34,521 nucleotides of DNA, taken from NCBI GenBank assembly GCA_029063085.1, contig JAIDOW010000089.1:1-34521 (forward strand). Direction: 5' to 3'. A program made the translations under genes and the position numbers. The notes under the pieces are model-generated. The model searched no databases. It was not told where the DNA came from and saw only the letters and a list, made by a program, of their open reading frames with translations. This DNA is from Lachnospiraceae bacterium (GTDB taxonomy: Bacteria > Bacillota > Clostridia > Lachnospirales > Lachnospiraceae). Of the stretch, positions 11,952 through 31,072 are shown piece after piece (position 1 is the first letter of the stretch; every line of letters begins with the position of its first letter).

Positions 11952-13952
11952 TTAATCCAAACAGGTAATCTTATAGTATGTCCTTGCTGTTAAGCTATAG
12001 ACTATGCCATATACAATCATGAAAACTCCTACAGTCGCAATGATACAGATAATAAATACTGCTGTATTGGTAAGTCCCCCTAAAACTAGCATCTTTTTTA
12101 TTGCATTAAACGCAAAACAGATATGAATAAGTGCAAACAAAATCGGCAAAAAGAACATCAACAGAATCTGACTTTTGATCACACCCTTTACCTCTTCTCC
12201 ACTCATTCCAACCTTTTGCAGAATAATAAACCTATCCTTATCATCATAACCTTCTGATACCTGTTTATAATATATGATCATTACAGTTGTACTCATAAAG
12301 AGAATCCCAAGGAATATTCCGATAAAAAATATACTACCGTAAAGTCCCCAAAGAGCATCCCTTTTGGTATAAATATCCTCAATCGTCGCCCAATCAGCAA
12401 TTTCTGCTTTCTGGATTATATTATTTATATCAGCACAAAATGCTTTTTTATCCCTCTCTTTTCCCTTTAGATTAAAATTATAATTATAGAATATTTTATT
12501 GCCTCTGCTTACCTCACTCCTGTCTAATATCGTTTTGATTTCTTCCATTGTCTTTAAATCCGGCACTACCAGCCATAAGTTTTGATATTCATTATATTGT
12601 GACTCCGCCCCCATTCCCGGAACATCCGTCATTCTTCCGCATATCGTATATTCTCTGTCCGATATCTTCATCGTATTTCCTTCAAAATCCCTGTCTTTGG
12701 AGACGTAAATCCATATCTTTCCGGGATAACATTCATAGTCGGTGTTCATCAATTTATTATAATCATCTAAAGTCATTACATCTAGATTAATGCTCCCCTC
12801 AATATTCCGAGGATCCTCCTCATAATCTACACAAAAATCATCCCCTTCTAATATTCCCATTGTATGATAATGATAATATTGTTCCACATCCTCTATCGTA
12901 ACATGGTATTTTGCTGCATATTCCTTTAAAACCTGTTCTAACTTTGTATAATCGCTATTCTCTTCACGATAGTAATCTGTCATGACATCTTTATAAAATG
13001 CAGCCTGCAAAGTATCCTCAGTTCCCACATATAAAGAGCTTGCAAACGTAAGTGCCACCAAAACCATTGTACTTAAAATACAAATATTAGACAATCCTAT
13101 TGCGTTTTGTTTCATCCTGTAAATCATCCCTGAAACCGTTATAAAATGATTTTTCTGGTAATAATAATTTTTATTATTTTTAAGCAGCTTTAACAAAACA
13201 ATGCTCCCGCTTATAAACATAAGATATGTTCCTGCTATCACAAACAAAACTGCCACAAAAAATACTTCAATCGTTTTTAACGGATTTTGTATGGTCAATG
13301 CAAGATAATATCCACTTCCCAGACACATCAATCCCAAAACTGCCATGAATCCCTTTGCTTTTGGCTCCCTTTCTCCTGACCGGCTCTTCCTCATCAAATC
13401 AATAGGCTTTAAACGATAAACCATAATACTGTTTGCTGTCAATACAGTTAAAAATATGGCTATAAACAAAAGAATGGTGATAAAAAGGGAAGCTGTTGAT
13501 ATCGCAAATGTAAAACCTGTCTGTAAATGCACAATTTTTAACAAGAGCATAAATATCAATTTTGAAAACAGTACACCAGCCAGTAACCCTATTAAAATAC
13601 TTCCTATTCCCACGATTCCAATCTCCCAGAAGATTACTTTAGCTATATGCTTTTTTTCCATTCCCAGAACGCTGTATAAGCCCAGTTCCTTAGATCGCTT
13701 TTTCATCAAAAAACTGTTCGTATAGAATATGACCAGCCAAGAAAAGAGACCACAGATAAACGTACCAAATTCCAGTACACTCTTCATTGCGGCTGCACCT
13801 ATAAACTGACTTTCGTTTACTAAATTACTTATGCTATGTATCATGTAAAACATGGCAATCATAACGATACAGGACAATGTAAATGGATAAAATGTATTTC
13901 TGTTTTTTCTGATATTATTTAACGCTAATTTCTGATATAATCCTCTATTCAT
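11952..13952 (-). CDS. bceB: BceB-type ABC transporter permease (antimicrobial peptide detoxification)
   Basis: 666 residues. The N-terminus YQKLALNNIRKNRNTFYPF leads into an FtsX-like four-helix unit (about 15-230), with more helices to about 310. A large extracytoplasmic domain follows (about 315-515, rich in charged and aromatic residues), then three C-terminal helices (about 525-660). This one-large-loop layout between helices VII and VIII is specific to BceB/VraG-type permeases. The start ATG at 13950-13952 overlaps the ATPase stop by 8 nt. With the ATPase it should act on peptide antibiotics bound to lipid-II-cycle intermediates and signal flux to the BceS-like kinase (family knowledge). 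Which peptide is not readable from sequence. Confidence 0.92.
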   Translation of the reverse strand: MNRGLYQKLALNNIRKNRNTFYPFTLSCIVMIAMFYMIHSISNLVNESQFIGAAAMKSVLEFGTFICGLFSWLVIFYTNSFLMKKRSKELGLYSVLGMEKKHIAKVIFWEIGIVGIGSILIGLLAGVLFSKLIFMLLLKIVHLQTGFTFAISTASLFITILLFIAIFLTVLTANSIMVYRLKPIDLMRKSRSGEREPKAKGFMAVLGLMCLGSGYYLALTIQNPLKTIEVFFVAVLFVIAGTYLMFISGSIVLLKLLKNNKNYYYQKNHFITVSGMIYRMKQNAIGLSNICILSTMVLVALTFASSLYVGTEDTLQAAFYKDVMTDYYREENSDYTKLEQVLKEYAAKYHVTIEDVEQYYHYHTMGILEGDDFCVDYEEDPRNIEGSINLDVMTLDDYNKLMNTDYECYPGKIWIYVSKDRDFEGNTMKISDREYTICGRMTDVPGMGAESQYNEYQNLWLVVPDLKTMEEIKTILDRSEVSRGNKIFYNYNFNLKGKERDKKAFCADINNIIQKAEIADWATIEDIYTKRDALWGLYGSIFFIGIFLGILFMSTTVMIIYYKQVSEGYDDKDRFIILQKVGMSGEEVKGVIKSQILLMFFLPILFALIHICFAFNAIKKMLVLGGLTNTAVFIICIIATVGVFMIVYGIVYSLTARTYYKITCLD

Positions 13953-14712
13953 GTATATCACCACCTGCCAATAATACCGTCATTGTATCGGATATTCTTT
14001 TATACATCTCATCATTGCTCATATTAGCCTTGTAAAGCTGATGAAAGATTTCACCATCCTTGATAAACAATACGCGCCCCGCATAGGACGCTGCCCTGAT
14101 ACTATGCGTAACCATAAGGATTGTCTGTCCTTCATCATGAAGCTGGTGGAAAGCTGCAAGCAAATCTCCTGCCGCTTTGGAATCCAGTGCCCCAGTGGGT
14201 TCATCTGCAAGAAGGATATCCGGACTTGTGATCATAGCCCTTGCCACTGCTGCCCTTTGCTTTTGCCCACCAGATACCTCATATGGATATTTTTTTAAGA
14301 TTTCTCCTATTCCCAGCTTATCAGCAATATCATCTAATAAATATTCCATCTGTCTGTGTTTTTTACCTGCCAGTACCAAAGGCAGATAAATGTTATCTTC
14401 TAAAGAAAAGGTATCTAACAGATTAAAATCCTGAAAAACAAATCCCAAATGTTCTCTTCTGAATCTTGCCAATTCATTTTCTTTAATAGTCGTAATATCT
14501 TTATCATTTAACAGAACCTGACCGGATGTAGGACGATCTACGGATGCTAATATATTTAACAAAGTTGTTTTGCCTGATCCAGACTCACCCATAATTGCTA
14601 CATATTCTCCCTCTTCTACAGAAAAATTCACATTTTTCAACGCTTCAACCTTATTTCCCCCAAAACGGGTCGTATATATTTTCTGCAATTCATTAACTTG
14701 TAAAAGTGACAT
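13945..14712 (-). CDS. bceA: BceA-type ABC transporter ATPase
   Basis: 255 residues. Walker A GESGSGKTT lies at 42-50, followed by Q-loop FVFQDFNLLD, signature VSGGQKQRAAVARA, Walker B ILLADEPTGALD and switch His in VTHS. The motif set and the pairing with an FtsX-like permease place it in the MacB/BceA group. The start at 14710-14712 follows GGAGGAAAAAAGAA; an upstream in-frame ATG would put this ribosome site inside the gene. It overlaps the permease start. The gene is separated from the two-component genes by about 250 bp with its own probable operator region. Confidence 0.95.
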   Translation of the reverse strand: MSLLQVNELQKIYTTRFGGNKVEALKNVNFSVEEGEYVAIMGESGSGKTTLLNILASVDRPTSGQVLLNDKDITTIKENELARFRREHLGFVFQDFNLLDTFSLEDNIYLPLVLAGKKHRQMEYLLDDIADKLGIGEILKKYPYEVSGGQKQRAAVARAMITSPDILLADEPTGALDSKAAGDLLAAFHQLHDEGQTILMVTHSIRAASYAGRVLFIKDGEIFHQLYKANMSNDEMYKRISDTMTVLLAGGDIHE

Positions 14713-14841
14713 TTCTTTTTTCCTCCATACTATTTTCCATTTAGGCAATTGCAAAACTCCTGTTTCAAATTTTTGCTATAATTCATCTATATCGTAAGGT
14801 AACCGTCTGCGAAACAGATCTTCTCAATTGTCGGTTTTTTT

Positions 14842-14853
14842 GTTAACGTTAAC
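14842..14853. promoter_or_regulatory. GTTAACGTTAAC palindrome upstream of bceA
   Basis: A perfect 12-bp palindrome in the bceS-bceA gap, about 130 bp before the bceA start. A further TCTG-CGAAA-CAGA hairpin lies downstream near 14806-14818. It could be an operator, but it does not resemble a known BceR site closely. No clear -35/-10 was found for bceAB. Confidence 0.35.
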
Positions 14854-14871
14854 TTTTGTAGTTATTATAAG

Positions 14872-14915
14872 AAAAAAAGAAATGCACTGCCATAACTTTG
14901 CCTTACATTTCTTTT
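14872..14915 (-). terminator. Probable terminator after bceRS
   Basis: AAAAGAAATG (14915-14906 on the minus strand) pairs with CATTTCTTTT (14884-14875) across a 21-nt loop and runs on in T. AT-only stem, so strength is uncertain. It lies about 45 nt after the kinase stop and would separate bceRS from bceAB. Confidence 0.55.
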
Positions 14916-14961
14916 CCAAACCTTACAATTTTTTAAGGTTCCGATATTCATTGTTTCAATA

Positions 14962-15969
14962 TCACAGCTTTGCCCGGTTACCCAAATCCACCAGTACTGT
15001 TGTGCCTGCATTTACCTCCGAGATAATCTCAATACCATGATTTAACTGCCGTAAAATTTGTTTTACCAAAAACAGTCCTAACCCTGTAGCCTTTTTATCC
15101 TTTCTCCCATTATACCCGGTATATCCCCGTTCAAAAATACGGGGCAGATCCTCTGCGGTGATTCCAATTCCTGTATCCTCAATCTTCAAAATCTTCCTTT
15201 CATCCATAGAAATGGTAATATTTCCCTTTTTGGTATATTTAAGTGCATTGGAAATCAACTGCTTTAATACAAACACCATCCATTTCTCATCCGTAACCAC
15301 TTTCATATCCTCTGAAATCTCCACTTTAACCATAATTCTCTTGGAGATAAAAATGCGTGAAAAATACTTTACTGCCTGATTCACCATGGATCTTACCTGA
15401 TATGCTTTCAATACATAATCTGTACTATCCCCCTCCAGCCGGATATATTGCAGCATCATATCACTATACTGTTCAATCTCAAACAAATGCATCAGCACTT
15501 CTGCCTTTCCCGGTTCTTCCATCTCTGCTGCAAGCAACTGCAATGCGGTAAGTGGTGTTTTAATCTGATGTGTCCAAAGTGTTATATATTCCAAAATGTC
15601 TTTTTTAGATGCTTTGATGCTGTTTATTTTCTGATTTTTACGGAACAACAGCTCTGTCAGCAATTCCTGATAATCCCCTTCAATCAAGCTCTCTGGCTCA
15701 GGCATTTTGTCCAGTGTGACATCAATGTGTTTTTTCATCCGGCAAAGTTTCCCGTGCTTTCTGATATATCTGGTGACATCAAAAAAACAATAGCACAAGA
15801 ATATAGCAACACAAATTAATGCCGGATACCATACCAGCTTCAGGGGAATATCTGTCAATGCAAAACAACTAAAAAATACAACTGCCCAAACAATCAAAAA
15901 TCCGAACAGACGACTTTGTTCTTTGACATAATTTCCTAATAAACTCACAACAAACTTCTTATCTTTCAT
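14962..15969 (-). CDS. bceS: BceS-type intramembrane-sensing histidine kinase
   Basis: 335 residues. Two N-terminal helices (about 20-39 and 44-63) are joined by only a few residues, so there is no sensor domain of its own. This is typical of kinases that read the transporter's state. The H-box LWTHQIKTPLTAL has His134, followed by N-box KQLISNALKYT, G1 IEDTGIGI, and the family pattern DLPRIFERGYTGYNGR and ATGLGLFLVKQI. It starts 79 bp after the regulator and has AGGTG eight bases upstream of its ATG. It should phosphorylate the adjacent regulator when the transporter works on its peptide substrate. Confidence 0.94.
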   Translation of the reverse strand: MKDKKFVVSLLGNYVKEQSRLFGFLIVWAVVFFSCFALTDIPLKLVWYPALICVAIFLCYCFFDVTRYIRKHGKLCRMKKHIDVTLDKMPEPESLIEGDYQELLTELLFRKNQKINSIKASKKDILEYITLWTHQIKTPLTALQLLAAEMEEPGKAEVLMHLFEIEQYSDMMLQYIRLEGDSTDYVLKAYQVRSMVNQAVKYFSRIFISKRIMVKVEISEDMKVVTDEKWMVFVLKQLISNALKYTKKGNITISMDERKILKIEDTGIGITAEDLPRIFERGYTGYNGRKDKKATGLGLFLVKQILRQLNHGIEIISEVNAGTTVLVDLGNRAKL

Positions 15970-16048
15970 ATTACCGGCACCTGCTTTTTGTAACTAATTA
16001 TATTTTCATAAACACTTTATTCTGCCCTGTATGCTTTCCACGCTGTAT

Positions 16049-16735
16049 TTATCCAATGATATACCCAATCCCCTTCTTCGTCTTTACAAAATCCTCTAAG
16101 CCGATTTCTTTTAACTTTTTACGGATTCTTGTAATATTTACGGTAAGCGTATTATCATCAATAAAATTATTGCCATCCCAAAGCTGCATCATAATCGTAT
16201 CCCGGCTGACAATCCCCCCTGCATTTTCCATCAGCAGTGCCAGAATCTGAAATTCATTTTTTGAAAACTCTGCCCTTTTTCCTTGATAACTCATGGTCGC
16301 ATCCAACAAATTTAAGATTGCCCCCTGATGTTCGATAACATTTACCTGACCCGCATAAGAATAACTTCTTCTGATAATCGCCCCTACTTTTGCTGTAAGC
16401 ACTGCTAGATCAAAAGGTTTTGCAATAAAATCATCCCCACCCATATCCATCGCCATTACAATATTCATGTTATCATCCGCAGAAGAAATAAATACAATCG
16501 GGATTTTAAATAATTTACGGATTTGGGAACACCAATAAAACCCATTATAGTATGGCAGCATAATATCCATTAATATCAAATCCGGAGAAATACCAGTAAC
16601 CTCACCTAAAATATCCTGAAAATTTTCTGCCAGATACACTTTATATCCCCACTTTTCCAAATGCACTTTCATTTTTTCTCCAATCGTAGCTTCATCCTCT
16701 ACGATTAATATTTTATACTGTACCTGATTCCCCAT
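16049..16735 (-). CDS. bceR: BceR-type OmpR-family response regulator
   Basis: 228 residues. The receiver has phospho-acceptor Asp57 in LILMDIMLPYYNGFYWC and the BceR-type stretch FISSADDNMNIVMAMDMGGDDFIAKP (continuous, about residues 83-108). The C-terminal winged helix ends TRIRKKLKEIG...VKTKKGIGYIIG. AGGAGGAG stands three bases before the ATG, a strong site. First gene of the Bce locus; its expected targets are bceAB and itself. Confidence 0.94.
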   Translation of the reverse strand: MGNQVQYKILIVEDEATIGEKMKVHLEKWGYKVYLAENFQDILGEVTGISPDLILMDIMLPYYNGFYWCSQIRKLFKIPIVFISSADDNMNIVMAMDMGGDDFIAKPFDLAVLTAKVGAIIRRSYSYAGQVNVIEHQGAILNLLDATMSYQGKRAEFSKNEFQILALLMENAGGIVSRDTIMMQLWDGNNFIDDNTLTVNITRIRKKLKEIGLEDFVKTKKGIGYIIG

Positions 16736-16986: not shown

Positions 16987-17015
16987 TTGACAAGCAAAAT
17001 AGGATATGTTACTGT
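16987..17015 (+). promoter_or_regulatory. Promoter of the ABC-F gene
   Basis: TTGACA (16987-16992), 17 bp, TACTGT (17010-17015) preceded by TGT, i.e. an extended -10. It is divergent from the bceR promoter, which lies about 200 bp away across an AT-rich stretch in which nothing else was recognised. It implies a leader of about 400 nt before the ABC-F start codon. Confidence 0.7.
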
Positions 17016-17044
17016 AAACTCATCTTTAAAAAAGGGGTGAAAAC

Positions 17045-17056
17045 ATGAGGAGATAA
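17045..17056 (+). CDS. Three-codon leader minigene Met-Arg-Arg
   Basis: ATG AGG AGA TAA with GGGGTG five bases upstream, 30 nt after the promoter -10. The stop lies two bases before a long nested hairpin. A ribosome slowed by a peptidyl-transferase-centre drug on so short a frame would cover the foot of that hairpin. Coding is inferred from the strong ribosome site and position only. Confidence 0.45.
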   Translation: MRR

Positions 17057-17180
17057 TTTACTTTTGATTGCGCGAATGTTATTAACAGGATAAAAATGCA
17101 TTATATCCTGTTCTTATTATGTTGCCAAAAGTAGATTATGTGCTCATTAAGGATTTTACTGATGCCTACACGAATTACCA

Positions 17181-17266
17181 GTTGTCAACCTTTGGTTGGT
17201 GACAAATCTTATTCAGGAAGCTCGCTGATTCCTGCGTAGGTTATCAATATTTGATTGATGACAAAT
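17181..17266 (+). repeat. Two tandem related hairpin units, 59 bp apart
   Basis: 27-nt units at 17181-17207 and 17240-17266. Each begins GTTRTCAA, has a TTT loop and ends TGACAAAT. Unit 1 pairs over 10 bp, unit 2 over 9 bp. Differences preserve pairing: a C-G pair became T-A, a G-T pair A-T, and a T-G pair T-A. The 32-nt spacer holds its own CAGGAA/TTCCTG stem. Confidence 0.65.
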
Positions 17267-17347
17267 CCTCTTAACCTCTCTTTTTATATGAAAATGTTTA
17301 TGATAAAAAGACAATTGTATTGGTACACAATGGAGGTAACGTACGTA

Positions 17348-17443
17348 ATGAAACTGTTTGGCAGCAAACAGTTCTTTTTTTGCGTTCAGATGCAGAAATC
17401 AGAACCCTGGAAGGAGGAAACAATATGTCACAAATTAATGTAA
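17348..17443 (+). CDS. Leader reading frame overlapping the attenuator terminator
   Basis: 31 codons starting MKLFGSKQFFF, with GGAGG 11 bases before the ATG. Codons 2-12 read straight through the terminator stem, whose T-run encodes the Phe residues. The frame then runs past the ABC-F ribosome site and stops inside the ABC-F gene in another frame. Translation would disrupt the terminator. Coding is likely but not certain. Confidence 0.4.
   Translation: MKLFGSKQFFFCVQMQKSEPWKEETICHKLM
17352..17381 (+). terminator. Intrinsic terminator inside the ABC-F leader (attenuator)
   Basis: AACTGTTTG (17352-17360), loop GCAG, CAAACAGTT (17365-17373), then C and seven T. It stands 44 bp before the ABC-F start and after the promoter, so transcription must read through it to express the gene. 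Confidence 0.85.
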
Positions 17444-18957
17444 ATAACCTGACTTTCTCTTACGAAGGAAGCTTTGATCAAATTTTTGAAAATGCATCTT
17501 TTTCCATTGATACTGATTGGAAATTAGGATTTATCGGGCGAAACGGAAAGGGGAAAACTACTTTTTTGCAGCTTTTACTCGGAAAATACCCCTATACCGG
17601 AAGTATCCGCACCAATACGGTGTTTGACTATTTCCCATATACCATTACGGAAGAGCAGATGCAGATGCCGGGATCACAATTCATAGAAGAATTAAAATAT
17701 TCTTGTGAACTCTGGCGGGTCATATGTGAACTGGAACAATTACAAGAAACTGCGGAAATTTTGTATAGACCTTTTCACACCCTAAGCCTGGGAGAACGCA
17801 CAAAAATCTTACTGGCGGTATTATTTTCAGGCGAAAATGACTTTCTGCTGATTGATGAGCCAACAAATCATTTGGACCATGAAGCCAGAGAGAATGTAAA
17901 AAATTATTTATCTTCTAAGAAAGGATTTATTCTCGTATCCCATGACAGGGATTTACTGGATGCCTGCATCGACCATGTTCTGGTCTTGAACAGGCAGACC
18001 ATTGAAGTTCAAAGCGGCAATTTTTCCAGCTGGTGGGAAAACAAGCGACGAAAGGATCAGTTTGCAACAGCAGAAAATTTAAAACATCTCAAAGAAATCG
18101 GGAAGTTAAAACAGGCCGCAGCACGTGCTTCCGGATGGGCCGACCAAAACGAAAACTCAAAAATCGGTTTTGATCCCATAAAAGAACCGGATCGAAATAT
18201 AAGTACCAGACCTTATATTGGAGCAAAAACCAAAAAAATGCAGAGTCGGGTGAAATCAATGAAAAACCGGATAAACCGGGAAATAGAAGAAAAAGAAGGG
18301 CTTTTAGTAGATTTAGAAAAACCCGCAGATTTAAAAATCATGCCCCTTATACACCATAAAAAAATACTGGTAAACGCTAGAAATTATTCCCTCACATATA
18401 CAGACGGAAAACAGCCTGTCTTTATGAACCTGACATTTTCCATTTATCAGGGCGACCGGATAGCCATTCACGGTGCAAATGGATGTGGTAAATCTACTCT
18501 GATTAAGATGATCTTACAGCATTCGGGTAATGCAGATACACATCTGCATGTAATGGAATCCGGAATTTGTGAAACAGCCTCCGGACTGGTCATTTCCTAT
18601 GTAAATCAAGATACTTCTATGTTAACAGGCAGTATTCATAAATTCTGCTTCGAGCAGAATCTTGATGAAAGCTTATTTTGTGCAATCCTCAGACAGCTTG
18701 ATATGGAGCGTGTACAATTTCAAAAAAATATGGAAGAATTTTCAGAAGGACAAAAAAAGAAAGTACTAATTGCTGCAAGCCTTCTGACTCCAGCTCATTT
18801 GTATATATGGGATGAACCCCTAAATTATATAGATGTATTTTCCAGAATGCAGATTGAAAAACTGCTGCTGCATTATCAGCCAACCATGCTGTTTGTAGAA
18901 CATGATATAAAATTCCGTGAAACAATAGCAACTTCTGAAATCTGGCTGAATTCATAA
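17425..18957 (+). CDS. ABC-F ribosome-protection ATPase, Lsa-like
   Basis: 510 residues with two ABC domains and no membrane segments. Domain 1 has Walker A GRNGKGKTT (38-46), signature LSLGERTK, Walker B FLLIDEPTNHLD and VSHDRD. A charged linker (about 210-310) follows. Domain 2 has Walker A GANGCGKST, signature FSEGQKKK and Walker B LYIWDEPLNYID. The DEPLNY variant and the linker style match the Lsa/Eat/Vga antibiotic-resistance branch of ABC-F (lincosamides, pleuromutilins, streptogramin A). These proteins bind the ribosomal E site and dislodge drugs. The start follows AAGGAGGAAACAAT; upstream in-frame codons carry no good ribosome site. One of only two plus-strand genes here. The drug range is not deducible; a housekeeping EttA-like role is unlikely given the motifs. 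Confidence 0.9.
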   Translation: MSQINVNNLTFSYEGSFDQIFENASFSIDTDWKLGFIGRNGKGKTTFLQLLLGKYPYTGSIRTNTVFDYFPYTITEEQMQMPGSQFIEELKYSCELWRVICELEQLQETAEILYRPFHTLSLGERTKILLAVLFSGENDFLLIDEPTNHLDHEARENVKNYLSSKKGFILVSHDRDLLDACIDHVLVLNRQTIEVQSGNFSSWWENKRRKDQFATAENLKHLKEIGKLKQAAARASGWADQNENSKIGFDPIKEPDRNISTRPYIGAKTKKMQSRVKSMKNRINREIEEKEGLLVDLEKPADLKIMPLIHHKKILVNARNYSLTYTDGKQPVFMNLTFSIYQGDRIAIHGANGCGKSTLIKMILQHSGNADTHLHVMESGICETASGLVISYVNQDTSMLTGSIHKFCFEQNLDESLFCAILRQLDMERVQFQKNMEEFSEGQKKKVLIAASLLTPAHLYIWDEPLNYIDVFSRMQIEKLLLHYQPTMLFVEHDIKFRETIATSEIWLNS

Positions 18958-25038: not shown

Positions 25039-26343
25039 TTAATCCATGATGTCAACATCTTCGCCGCGGAGTATTTTATTGATATTTCTTACTGCACACA
25101 TTTTTCCACACATCGTACAGGTATCTTCCCGCTCCGGTGTAGAATCTGCACGGTATCTTCTTGCCTTTTCACCATCCATTGCCAGTTCAAACTGTTTTTC
25201 CCAGTCAAGATTCCTGCGGGCTTCACTCATCTGATAATCCCAGTCCTTTGCTCCCGGTACTCCCTTTGCAATATCTGCGGCATGGGCAGCAATCTTTGAT
25301 GCGATAATGCCTTCTTTCACATCCTCTACTGTCGGAAGACGCAAATGTTCCGCCGGAGTAACATAGCAAAGAAACGAAGCACCGTAAGTTGCCGCAATTG
25401 CACCTCCGATAGCAGCTGTAATATGGTCATACCCCGGTGCCACATCAGTCACCAGCGGGCCTAACACATAAAATGGTGCACCCTTACAGATTGTCTGTTC
25501 AATCTCCATATTGGCACGAATCTGATCAAGCGGCATATGTCCCGGTCCCTCAATCATTACCTGCACATTTCTTTCCCATGCACGCTGTGTCAATTCCCCA
25601 AGCGTTACCAGTTCTTCTATCTGGGAAATATCACCTGCATCCTCAATACTTCCAGGCCGGCAGGCATCCCCAAGACTTAAGGTTACATCATATTCACTAC
25701 AAATATCTAAAATCTCATCATAGTACTCAAAAAAAGGGTTCTCATTTCCTGTCAATTCCATCCATGCAAATATAATAGAACCTCCTCTGGAAACAATATT
25801 TGTATGCCGCTTTGCTTTTTTAAACCGCTTTGCTGTCTCCTTGTTGATTCCACAGTGAATCGTCATAAAATCCACTCCATCTTCGGCATGCATCTTTACA
25901 ATATCAATCCATTCTCTGGAAGTGATACTCTTCAATGCTTTGTTATAATAAACCACTGCATCATAGATTGGGACAGTACCGATTATCGCACTACACTCTG
26001 AAGTCAGCTTTTTACGGAATCTACGGGTATCCCCAAAAGAACTTAAATCCATAATAGATTCTGCACCTAAGCGAATAGATTCTTTTACTTTCTCCATCTC
26101 CATATCCAAATCCAGACAATCCTTGGAAGTTCCTAAATTTACATTAATTTTGGTTTTAAGCTTTGTACCTATTCCATATGGTTTTAAACAGCTATGATTC
26201 TTATTGGCAGGGATTACCACTTTCCCCTTTGCCGCAAGTGCTCTGAGCTCTTCCTCATCTATTCCCTCATATTCCGCAACCACCTTCATTTCCTTTGTGA
26301 TAATGCCTTTTTTGGCAGCATCCATCTGTGTCGTATATATCAT
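25039..26343 (-). CDS. thiC: Phosphomethylpyrimidine synthase
   Basis: 434 residues, the short form common in anaerobes, lacking the long N-terminal domain of the E. coli enzyme. Central barrel motifs are [44 protein letters not shown] and [11 protein letters not shown]. The C-terminal cluster motif is [12 protein letters not shown], binding a radical-SAM 4Fe-4S cluster; the spacing seen is C-x2-C-x3-C. It turns aminoimidazole ribotide into HMP phosphate. First gene of the operon, with GGAAGG upstream of the ATG and a TPP riboswitch about 220 nt further upstream. Confidence 0.97.
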
Positions 26344-26534: not shown

Positions 26535-26564
26535 AAATCATATAAGATCATATTCACACATATA

Positions 26565-26655
26565 TCTCGAATCCCTACGTTAGCATTACCTAAATCAGGT
26601 TGCGGGTCGAAGTTGATGACTTCCTCTCAGCCTGCTCCACAAGCTCCCCGTTCAT
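26565..26655 (-). promoter_or_regulatory. TPP riboswitch (THI element) controlling the thi operon
   Basis: Minus strand, 5' to 3': GGGGAGC, then GCTGAGAGGAAG, then ACCCGCAACCTGATTTAGG, TAATGCTAACGTAGGGA. These are the conserved CUGAGA, ACCUGAU and GCUAACGUAGGGA elements of the TPP aptamer, in correct order and spacing. TPP binding should favour the downstream terminator and shut off thiC-thiM-thiE-HAD-thiD. Confidence 0.97.
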
Positions 26656-26670
26656 ATTCAATTCTAAGCC

Positions 26671-28801: not shown

Positions 28802-30955
28802 TTATGGCAGTATATTCCCTGCTGCCCGATAAAGTTCATACCATTCTTTCCTGTTTAAATGTATATTTACTGCCTTACACAACTCCTTTAAATGCTCTAT
28901 ATTTGTGGTTCCTGCAATCACCTGAATATTTGCAGGATGTCTTAAAATCCATGCAATTGCGACCGCAGTCTTTGTAACATTAAATTGCTTCGCCAGTCTT
29001 TCCAGTACAACATTTAATTCCGGAAACTTCTCATTATCTACAAAATTACCCTCAAAAAAACCATATTGCAAAGGTGACCAGGCCTGAACTGTAATGCCAT
29101 GAAGACGGCAGTAATCCAATATTGCCGTATCTCTCTGGATACCTCCATCAAATAATGTATTTGCTTCTATCCCGCTGCTCACCATTCCCGCATGCATTAA
29201 ACCAAACTGCATCTGATTCACTAACAGTTTTTCTCTACAGGCTGACTGCAATAATTCCAACTGAAAAGAATTAAAATTACTCACTCCAAATTGCCTTACT
29301 TTTCCACTTCTCTCCAGATGGTGAAAGGTTTCTGCAACCTCATCAGCTTCCATCAATGCGTCTGGTCTGTGCAGTAAAAGCAGATCAATACAATCTGTTT
29401 GCAGCCTCCTCAGGCTGTCTTCCACACAAGACTGGATATACGCTCTTGAAAAATCATAAAATCCTTTTCTGATTCCGCATTTTGTCTGTATCCTCATCCT
29501 CTCCCGCATACCTTTATTTTCAGAAAGCACTTTCCCAAATATTTCTTCACTCCTGCCATCACCATAAATATCAGCGTGATCAAATAGTGTTATCCCTTGT
29601 TCTAATGCAGCATTTACCAGCTTTTCCGCTTCCTGTACTGACAAGGAATCCATCCTCATACAGCCAAGTGCTATACGACTGGCATCCATATCCGATTTCC
29701 CAAGATTCATAGACATTTTCCCGCCTAACGGTTTTACACCTGTACGTTCATATCCAATTTTATCCGCCACTTTATTTGCCATTTTCATGAGAATATGACG
29801 ATGCGTTTTAGTCACATGGAAATAAATATTTTCTACCTTGGTCGCAAATTCTTCGGTGGAAAACCTCTGTGCACTCTCTAATGCATTCTTTGAATAATCA
29901 ATCTGATTTTCATTCCAGAGCACCTGATCCATTCCATATACAAAAGAGTTTCTGTCCACAAACTCATATCCGTTTTCCCCTTGAAACAAAACTCCTTCCA
30001 GACAGGAATCTCTTCTCGCCACAACCGGAAGCCCGGAGGCTAACGCTTCAATATAAGTAAGACCCTGTGTTTCACTTGTAGAACCGGATACAAACACATC
30101 TGCCAACTGATAATAATGGGTAATTTCATCCCATGGTTTTGCTCCGGCAAATACAATTTGTCTTCTGTGCTTCAATCCCCTGGCAATCCGTTCCAATGCA
30201 CCTTTATAAGGCCCGTCACCGACCACCAGAAACGTCACATTTTCGTGCTCTTCCATATAATAGTCCAGATATTGCATAACCTCATTAATATTTTTCTCCT
30301 CCGATATACGTCCAAGATATAAGACAACCTTATTCTCTTTCGGAATACCAAGTGATACTTTCAGCTTCAATTTCTGCACTTCGCTGTCCCGTATTCCAAA
30401 ACGGCTTAAATCAATACCTGTAGGAATTACATTAATATCCGGTTTAACTCCGTAACACTGCATTAAACCTGCCACTTTCTCTGTAGGAACGATCAGTTCC
30501 TCCGCACTACGGACACTGAATTTGCTAAACAATTTCACCAATTGCTTTGCACGTTTTTCACTTGAAATATATTTTTTAATATAGTGCGTATAATCCTCAT
30601 AAATTGTATGATAAGTATGCACGATAGGAATCAACATCTCATGAGCCATAATCCGCCCAAACATACCGATGGCAAACTCTGTATTCGTATGAATAACATC
30701 CAGTTTCATCTTGTGAATCTTCAATGCCATTTTAGGATGATAGAACAATCCCACTCTCCGCTCCGGTACAAACGAACACGCTTTAGACGGCACTCTGAAC
30801 ACTCCCTTTTCATTAGCAGGAGCATCCGGTGTCTTCGTTGTAATCACGTATACATTATGACCTTTCTTTTCTAATTCCTTTTTTAAAAGATAAACAGAAT
30901 TGGCAACTCCATTCAACTCCGGATAATAAGTATCCGTAAATAAACCAATATTCAT
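28802..30955 (-). CDS. Fused GT4 glycosyltransferase and aldo/keto reductase
   Basis: 717 residues in one uninterrupted frame. Residues 1-413 are a GT-B glycosyltransferase of family 4: NIGLFTDTYYPELNGVANSV at the N-terminus, IPTGIDLSRF, YLGRISEEKN, and the donor-site motif SETQGLTYIEALASGLPVV, closest in style to diacylglycerol glucosyltransferases. Residues 414-717 are a complete aldo/keto reductase: MNLGKSDMDASRIALGCMRM, FDHADIYG (Asp, Tyr), QTKCG (Lys), LLLHRPD (His), FGVSNFN, and IQVIAGTTNIEHL for cofactor binding. The junction GGK-MSMNLG has an internal ATG at 29714-29716 preceded by AGGCGGG, so the reductase may also be made separately. The start at 30953-30955 follows GGGAG. No membrane helix. 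Natural substrates unknown. Confidence 0.88.
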   Translation of the reverse strand: MNIGLFTDTYYPELNGVANSVYLLKKELEKKGHNVYVITTKTPDAPANEKGVFRVPSKACSFVPERRVGLFYHPKMALKIHKMKLDVIHTNTEFAIGMFGRIMAHEMLIPIVHTYHTIYEDYTHYIKKYISSEKRAKQLVKLFSKFSVRSAEELIVPTEKVAGLMQCYGVKPDINVIPTGIDLSRFGIRDSEVQKLKLKVSLGIPKENKVVLYLGRISEEKNINEVMQYLDYYMEEHENVTFLVVGDGPYKGALERIARGLKHRRQIVFAGAKPWDEITHYYQLADVFVSGSTSETQGLTYIEALASGLPVVARRDSCLEGVLFQGENGYEFVDRNSFVYGMDQVLWNENQIDYSKNALESAQRFSTEEFATKVENIYFHVTKTHRHILMKMANKVADKIGYERTGVKPLGGKMSMNLGKSDMDASRIALGCMRMDSLSVQEAEKLVNAALEQGITLFDHADIYGDGRSEEIFGKVLSENKGMRERMRIQTKCGIRKGFYDFSRAYIQSCVEDSLRRLQTDCIDLLLLHRPDALMEADEVAETFHHLERSGKVRQFGVSNFNSFQLELLQSACREKLLVNQMQFGLMHAGMVSSGIEANTLFDGGIQRDTAILDYCRLHGITVQAWSPLQYGFFEGNFVDNEKFPELNVVLERLAKQFNVTKTAVAIAWILRHPANIQVIAGTTNIEHLKELCKAVNIHLNRKEWYELYRAAGNILP

Positions 30956-31072
30956 GATACAATTCTCCCTATTCTTTAGATTTATCTCTATTCCTAAATT
31001 ATCTTTCATTGCAAATCATTTTTTTATTCTAATACATTTTATAAAAAAAGTCTTGTGAAATTTTTATGAAAG

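Follow-up and report, generated by a model that had tools for sequence, protein, structure and literature searches.

The closest described counterparts of the leader considered here are the attenuators of cplR and vmlR. In cplR (Clostridioides difficile and relatives), a three-codon uORF (MR[I/M]) is sequestered in a 5' hairpin and is followed by an antiterminator and by a terminator, ahead of the ARE-ABCF gene, that hides the main Shine-Dalgarno (SD) sequence; its authors tested uORF, terminator and drug induction with reporters, and the leader is induced by retapamulin and lincomycin (PMC10201436). The Bacillus subtilis vmlR leader carries a tripeptide uORF (MIN) in an anti-antiterminator hairpin (SL-1), an antiterminator and a terminator (SL-3). 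The SD of the vmlR uORF is single-stranded and precedes SL-1, which is not described as a terminator in the parts of that report drawn on here, and its authors tested uORF mutations and drug induction (PMC9226507). A very short uORF (MAGN) has also been reported for Lsa(A), and the Listeria lmo0919 leader has been aligned with the uORF and anti-SD elements of cplR (PMC10201436). PLSA drugs act early and with little context dependence (PMC10201436).

The DNA analysed here (the window) comprises 34,521 nt of a Lachnospiraceae bacterium (GCA_029063085.1, contig JAIDOW010000089.1, positions 1-34,521 of the forward strand). In it, a leader of about 400 nt lies between a promoter and a gene for an ABC-F ribosomal protection protein. 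The leader folds with z = -5.0, none of 100 shuffles being equally stable. The ABC-F product passes NF000355, the general ribosomal-protection ABC-F model, with 436.6 bits (cut-off 380). Its top-scoring model is NF000167, of the Lsa family, at 623.8 bits, which is under the curated cut-off of 750; the protein is called Lsa-like here. The features of the locus are as follows.

16987-17015, plus strand: promoter, with -35 TTGACA (16987-16992), a 17-nt spacer and an extended -10, TG-T-TACTGT (17007-17015); from sequence, position kept in relatives
17033-17038, plus strand: SD of the uORF, GGGGTG, also strand 1 of the anti-SD helix; from sequence and SD:anti-SD pairing in relatives
17045-17056, plus strand: uORF (minigene) ATG AGG AGA TAA, Met-Arg-Arg, within the 5' arm of hairpin T1; from sequence and conserved frames
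17045-17147, plus strand: core of hairpin T1, putative anti-antiterminator, terminator-like too in relatives; arms 17045-17066 / 17126-17147, distal hairpin 17084-17112; from complementarity and covariation
17121-17147, plus strand: T1 3' arm GTTGCCAAAAGTAGATTATGTGCTCAT, proposed antiterminator strand (strand 2); from complementarity to parts of 17333-17366, covariation and the window fold
17148-17272, plus strand: insertion with an interspersed palindromic repeat of 59-nt period (hairpins 17181-17203 and 17240-17262); edges placed by comparison with relatives
17273-17285, plus strand: displaced anti-SD of T1, AACCTCTC, and U-tract; from sequence and predicted pairing with 17030-17040
17333-17366, plus strand: lead strand of T2 (strand 3), GAGGTAACGTACGTAATGAAACTGTTTGGCAGCA; a conserved module in relatives, predicted to pair with the T1 3' arm under a ribosome footprint
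17352-17381, plus strand: intrinsic terminator T2, AACTGTTTGGCAGCAAACAGTT and U-tract (stem 17352-17373, then U7); from sequence and T2 in relatives
17411-17417, plus strand: SD of the ABC-F gene, AAGGAGG; from sequence
17425-18957, plus strand: gene for the Lsa-like ABC-F ribosomal protection protein, 510 aa; from profile scores

Adjoining the ABC-F gene on the minus strand (11952-16735) are a response regulator, a histidine kinase, an ABC ATPase and a 670-aa frame, which we take to resemble a two-component/ABC transporter system of the peptide-antibiotic kind. Elsewhere in the window, also on the minus strand, are a TPP riboswitch (26555-26660, 68.2 bits) upstream of a ThiC radical SAM gene (25039-26343) and a single 735-aa frame with glycosyltransferase and aldo/keto reductase domains (28802-31009).

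As in cplR and vmlR, a very short uORF with its own SD lies upstream of an ARE-ABCF-like gene, the uORF is placed within a predicted and covarying anti-antiterminator hairpin, and an antiterminator and an intrinsic terminator, recognised from sequence only, would exclude one another. The first-pass annotation had suggested an undescribed type of attenuator; that suggestion fails, since cplR and vmlR both have the tripeptide uORF, anti-antiterminator hairpin, antiterminator and terminator (PMC10201436, PMC9226507). The design is theirs, in what appears to be a variant of its own. T2 stands apart from the ABC-F SD, whereas the cplR terminator covers the main SD; T1 appears terminator-like itself, with the uORF SD in its stem, unlike what the consulted parts of the cplR and vmlR reports describe; and, unlike in cplR, the target gene is Lsa-like. 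With Lsa(A) the leader has a very short uORF in common, encoding a different peptide. A search of mostly open-access literature found, among the papers listed, no description of a leader of this type in Lachnospiraceae.

Conservation was assessed in the best 80 of 519 ABC-F loci found by peptide patterns, a sample that therefore leans to close relatives. The elements used for a covariance model, R1, numbered 57, with 56 taken from the relatives' loci and one from a MATE locus of the source genome. It matches 74 of the 80 loci (sense strand, E 0.01), 56 of which had helped to build it, and the window itself at 75.7 bits (E 2.6e-15); such a search of related ABC-F leaders had been proposed in the first-pass annotation. 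Six relatives are unmatched (L007, L011, L016, L052, L076 and L078), of which L076 has only 57 nt upstream. Antisense matches of R1 reflect the palindromic element.

The promoter, earlier called good, scores only 9/12 in the window, but the best site reaches 10-12/12 in 67 of 74 leaders (window counted in), with a mean best score of 10.7 versus 7.6 in letter shuffles, and in these 67 leaders with sites of at least 10/12 the -10 end stands a median of 13 nt (IQR 13-14) upstream of the element. The 12-nt frame behind GGGGTG is likewise as first annotated. Read by script, exactly three-codon frames are present in 66 of 75 element matches (74 plus the window), and 64 of the 75 encode M[RK][RKI], divided among MRR (26), MKR (20), MRI (7), MRK (6) and MKK (5); MKE and MQR occur once each as three-codon frames outside this pattern. 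Inspection finds the frame retained in L009 and L026, starting with TTG and GTG, respectively, reduced to two codons in L031, extended in L033 and L039, and reading MRTQR in L064 and L070. The element matches of L041 and L054 start at model position 19, where the scripted reading of frames is not meaningful.

That codons 2 and 3 are mostly Arg or Lys is what would be expected of amino-acid attenuation, in which translation of these codons would gauge the charging of arginyl- or lysyl-tRNA, as trp-type leaders do for theirs. We regard this as very unlikely, because Arg and Lys swap freely, MRI and MKE occur too, and the genes downstream (ABC-F, MATE, GNAT, kinase and metallophosphoesterase) are not those of arginine or lysine metabolism; a purine-rich second codon also fits the ATGAG:CTCAT pairing. 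That Arg, Lys and Ile replace one another speaks against a strictly coded peptide and would fit a uORF that responds to early-acting drugs with little context dependence.

The uORF is enclosed in T1. A nested hairpin in this position was recognised at first pass, and it exists; it does not start two bases past the uORF stop, as was then thought, and its pairing begins inside the minigene. In the window the 22-nt arms are 86% complementary. Among the relatives T1 pairs are kept in 98.0% of cells, 25 cells have changed on both sides versus 6.2 in shuffles (none of 500 as high), and sliding the pairing register lowers the paired cells to 41-63%. T1 is closed by an SD:anti-SD helix, with at least five expected pairs in 74 of 74 relatives and two of eight pairs changed on both sides, and a U-tract follows this helix in most relatives. 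The relatives' T1 thus looks like an intrinsic terminator in its own right, one that holds the uORF's own SD and start.

Both T1 arms contain many invariant or near-invariant columns, exceeding what a plain hairpin needs, and this could point to a ligand-binding riboswitch, in which the arms would build an aptamer that binds a drug or metabolite, the uORF being incidental. Such a riboswitch is very unlikely. The uORF start, stop and three-codon length are kept in the same 66 of 75, the apical part of T1 is variable, and the need for the 3' arm to pair with either of two partners accounts for the conservation of the arms. Nor does the leader match any family of Rfam 15 at gathering score; at E 5 only two chance snoRNA matches appear.

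The intrinsic terminator first annotated 44 bp before the ABC-F start is upheld, the end of T2 lying 44 nt from the ATG. The terminator scan by itself is not above chance (2 found versus 1.8 expected), and it is conservation that makes T2 credible. In the relatives a second conserved module, typically GAGGTTATAGTATGTAATGGAACTGTTTGGCAACAAATGGTTCC plus a U-tract, lies downstream of T1, and its lead strand is complementary to the T1 3' arm (GTTGCCAAA...ATAACCTC). An AUG-UAA start-stop frame in the T2 modules (GTATGTAATGG, with an SD-spaced look) was considered and rejected; its AUG varies (ACG in the window, GCG in L040), and pairing with ATTATGT of the T1 arm accounts for the remainder of GTATGTAATGG.

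By the script's rule, a terminator-type T2 is present in 57 of 75 leaders including the window, with a U-tract after T2, and 18 of 75 are without one. In two leaders, L012 and L074, the ABC-F SD is covered by the fold at the T2 position (pairing 0.99 and 0.89), which lacks a terminal U-tract, and cplR uses both levels of control (PMC10201436). Both points would suit control at translation only, in which T1 and T2 are inefficient terminators and the leader hides or exposes ribosome-binding sites. The U-tract in those 57 leaders and the position of the window's ABC-F SD outside T2 make this improbable, though less so than the riboswitch.

Covariation supports an alternative pairing of the T1 3' arm (strand 2) with the T2 lead strand (strand 3), the putative antiterminator. 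Among 81 leaders, those of the window and the 80 relatives, the script located both strands in 60; nine of the 21 dropped are without a T1 arm and 12 without T2. The set of 60 keeps weak or spurious T2 picks (L014, L020 and L023, by inspection), and block B includes the window's displaced arm. In both blocks the cognate 2:3 duplex energy beats 10000 of 10000 shuffles (-13.4 versus -12.2 and -11.1 versus -9.8 kcal/mol). With the window left out (n=59), the z value for block B is -7.8 and none of 5000 shuffles is as good; thinning the set to 19 leaders, each with a distinct arm, still leaves 0/5000. Of four control segments from these loci, three are flat (z -0.7 to -0.8); the reversed T2 lead strand, as a control, gives a weak signal (z -2.9, 12/5000). 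Examples of the covariation are GCCGCC/GGTGGC in L018, CACCTC/GAGGTG in L035 and AGCCTC/GAGGCT in L031.

Folding with and without a ribosome footprint, a check named at first pass, favors the same switch. With a ribosome covering -14 to +16 of the uORF AUG in 56 leaders (L005, L009, L064 and L070 skipped), expected 2:3 pairs rise from 2.3 to 26.5 in RNA that stops short of the T2 3' arm (0 to 20.3 in the window) and from 0.8 to 15.5 in the full RNA (0 to 13.9 in the window). Once T2 is complete, equilibrium folding lowers its mean probability under the footprint only from 0.87 to 0.71 across the 56 leaders; the drop exceeds 0.2 in 15 of them, and in the window T2 falls from 1.0 to 0.53. Since T2 mostly persists at equilibrium, the attenuation model needs co-transcriptional order.

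Very probably, the leader is a transcription attenuator in which a tripeptide uORF senses a drug-stalled ribosome. Strand 1 would be the SD and three-codon uORF, strand 2 the T1 3' arm, and strands 3 and 4 the terminator T2. In the absence of drug, the ribosome would translate Met-Arg-Arg and depart at once, strands 1 and 2 would shut into T1, and any polymerase getting past T1 would encounter T2. A drug that blocks the first peptide bonds (a lincosamide, pleuromutilin or streptogramin A would be expected) would hold the ribosome on the minigene, so that T1 could not close and its 3' arm would be released; if that arm paired with strand 3 before strand 4 was synthesized, T2 would fail and the ABC-F gene would be transcribed. 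Probably, then, ABC-F transcription occurs only when a drug stalls the ribosome on the minigene. Sequence comparison backs the uORF, both pairings (1:2 and 2:3), the terminator-like ends and the position of the promoter; that the ribosome stalls, which drugs make it do so, how efficiently T1 and T2 terminate and that the gene is induced is inferred. The central proposal of the first-pass annotation, attenuation by a leader peptide whose frame is a minimal sensor, gains strong support from the occurrence of the leader in 74 of 80 relatives, the 64 of 75 conserved frames and the 2:3 covariation.

The window's own leader departs from this plan at one point. Between CTCAT (ending at 17147) and AACCTCTCTTTTT (17273-17285) lies an insertion of 125 nt containing two hairpins 59 nt apart. 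These are the two further related hairpins of the first-pass annotation; they exist, and they belong to an interspersed repeat, so they were rejected as parts of the device. A two-unit probe of the repeat finds seven places in the source genome (the window being one), 35 in G025, 23 in G020, seven in G022 and one in G009; the repeat is present in 5 of 26 genus genomes, and at E 0.01 no copy was detected in any leader of the 80 relatives. In G022 the 59-nt unit is in tandem, in G025 the ABC-F leader has a further copy immediately after its T1 element, and a copy is also present at L214 (1454-1571). The displaced anti-SD is predicted to make 8.9 expected pairs with 17030-17040 if the RNA ends at 17290, and 1.5 in longer RNA. 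The closing helix of T1 may thus form around the insert and face competition later, so that T1 may terminate poorly here and T2 would be the surer terminator in the window.

R1 gives no match at E 0.01 in ten more distant ABC-F loci of at most 55% identity (L101-L108, L110 and L111). Genome searches, independent of the loci that built the model, place the element in 14 of 98 relatives' genomes, all 14 among the 60 of the window's family and none among the 38 outside it. With the best eight candidates per genome scored, so that copies can be missed, it is present in at least 49 of 396 family genomes; scored in the same way, at least 2 of 392 class genomes have it, namely the source genome and G121 of the same family. 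Two records of Ruminococcus flavefaciens carry it (L071 and L077). Fifteen genomes encode an ABC-F protein at least 62% identical to that of the window, and nine have a clear R1 match at the locus (75.7 bits for the window's own, at least 96 for the others). Matches are weak in L095, L096, L097 and L098 (24.7, 17.4, 20.3 and 18.7 bits), whose leaders have four-codon frames by eye, such as ATG AAG AAT AGA TAA in L095 and ATG TTT ATA AGA TAA in L096 and L097. L088, with an ABC-F protein 73% identical, has no R1 match, keeps the AACCTCTCTTTTTT stretch alone and shows no short frame by script; L094 has upstream sequence from which the R1 element is absent. With matches weak or missing in such close ABC-F relatives, divergence or loss of the leader has happened on more than one occasion. 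The leaders of L095-L098 have the look of a divergent sister leader, with frames ending AGA TAA and a different terminator-like end.

Against 12 CplR-like loci, all below the CplR cut-off, R1 gives two weak matches (E 0.008 and 0.014) and none at E 10 in the other ten. Some of these leaders start like the one described here, L225 having ATGAGAATATAATCCGCTT with AGTGGATTATT and L223 having ATGAAGAAGTAATCCATTTTG with GAGTGGATAATG. By eye, a three-codon M[KR] frame with TAATCC behind it can be read in L221, L223, L224, L225 and L227; the remaining loci have a longer frame or none that is obvious. The shared frames and weak R1 matches suggest, but do not prove, a common origin. A mobile element was also considered and is unlikely: viral contigs contain no exact copy of a 28-base pattern from the conserved 3' arm, plasmids and phages yield no match to the L057 leader, and the pattern, with up to three mismatches allowed, turns up 27 times among 397 family genomes, in 27 of them and once in each.

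Downstream of 58 examined sense R1 matches, the gene is an ABC-F gene in 53. The ABC-F proteins of L176, L181 and L182 are only about 24% identical to that of the window, and the one in L176 passes no cut-off among the 25 models listed. In the other five it encodes a MATE transporter (in the source genome), a metallophosphoesterase, a GNAT, a kinase-GNAT fusion or a PRK06761-related P-loop kinase (126.9 bits, short of the 270 cut-off); the kinase of L153 matches no Pfam family. The source genome itself carries a second copy of the attenuator, on contig C35 (L003 1813-3415), before this MATE transporter gene (TIGR00797, 192.9 bits, over the cut-off) and with no ABC-F gene between. In L204, 12 residues of an ABC-F frame start, followed by a stop, lie between leader and MATE gene, and in L092 a MATE gene follows the ABC-F gene on the same strand. 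The kinase gene follows the ABC-F gene in 7 of the 80 loci (L014, L020, L041, L048 in two pieces, L055, L065 and L069), and L091 has it behind the ABC-F gene and then a GNAT. The simplest reading is that the leader-MATE, -GNAT and -kinase arrangements apparently arose by loss of the ABC-F gene from operons of leader, ABC-F gene and partner. The MATE, kinase and GNAT genes behind the leader may then respond to drugs as well. PRK06761-related kinases, again below the cut-off, occur in or behind the ABC-F operons of L091, L149, L153 and L176, those of L149 and L091 being accompanied by a GNAT domain or gene.

A broader reading is offered tentatively, at somewhat less than even confidence: the leader may represent a distinct Lachnospiraceae RNA family in which one hairpin serves as drug sensor, as first terminator and as reservoir of the antiterminator that acts on a second terminator, so that a single stalled ribosome would open two serial locks. 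It might also control a wider set of genes inducible by PTC drugs (a MATE pump, the PRK06761-like P-loop kinase, GNAT and metallophosphoesterase), some of them kept after loss of the ABC-F gene. For a major group of gut commensals the leader provides a covariation-backed and testable model of inducible tolerance to lincosamides, pleuromutilins and streptogramin A. It suggests that the tripeptide-uORF design extends to Lsa-like genes in these commensals, and it draws attention, as candidates for drug-inducible functions, to kinase and acetyltransferase genes that are uncharacterised.
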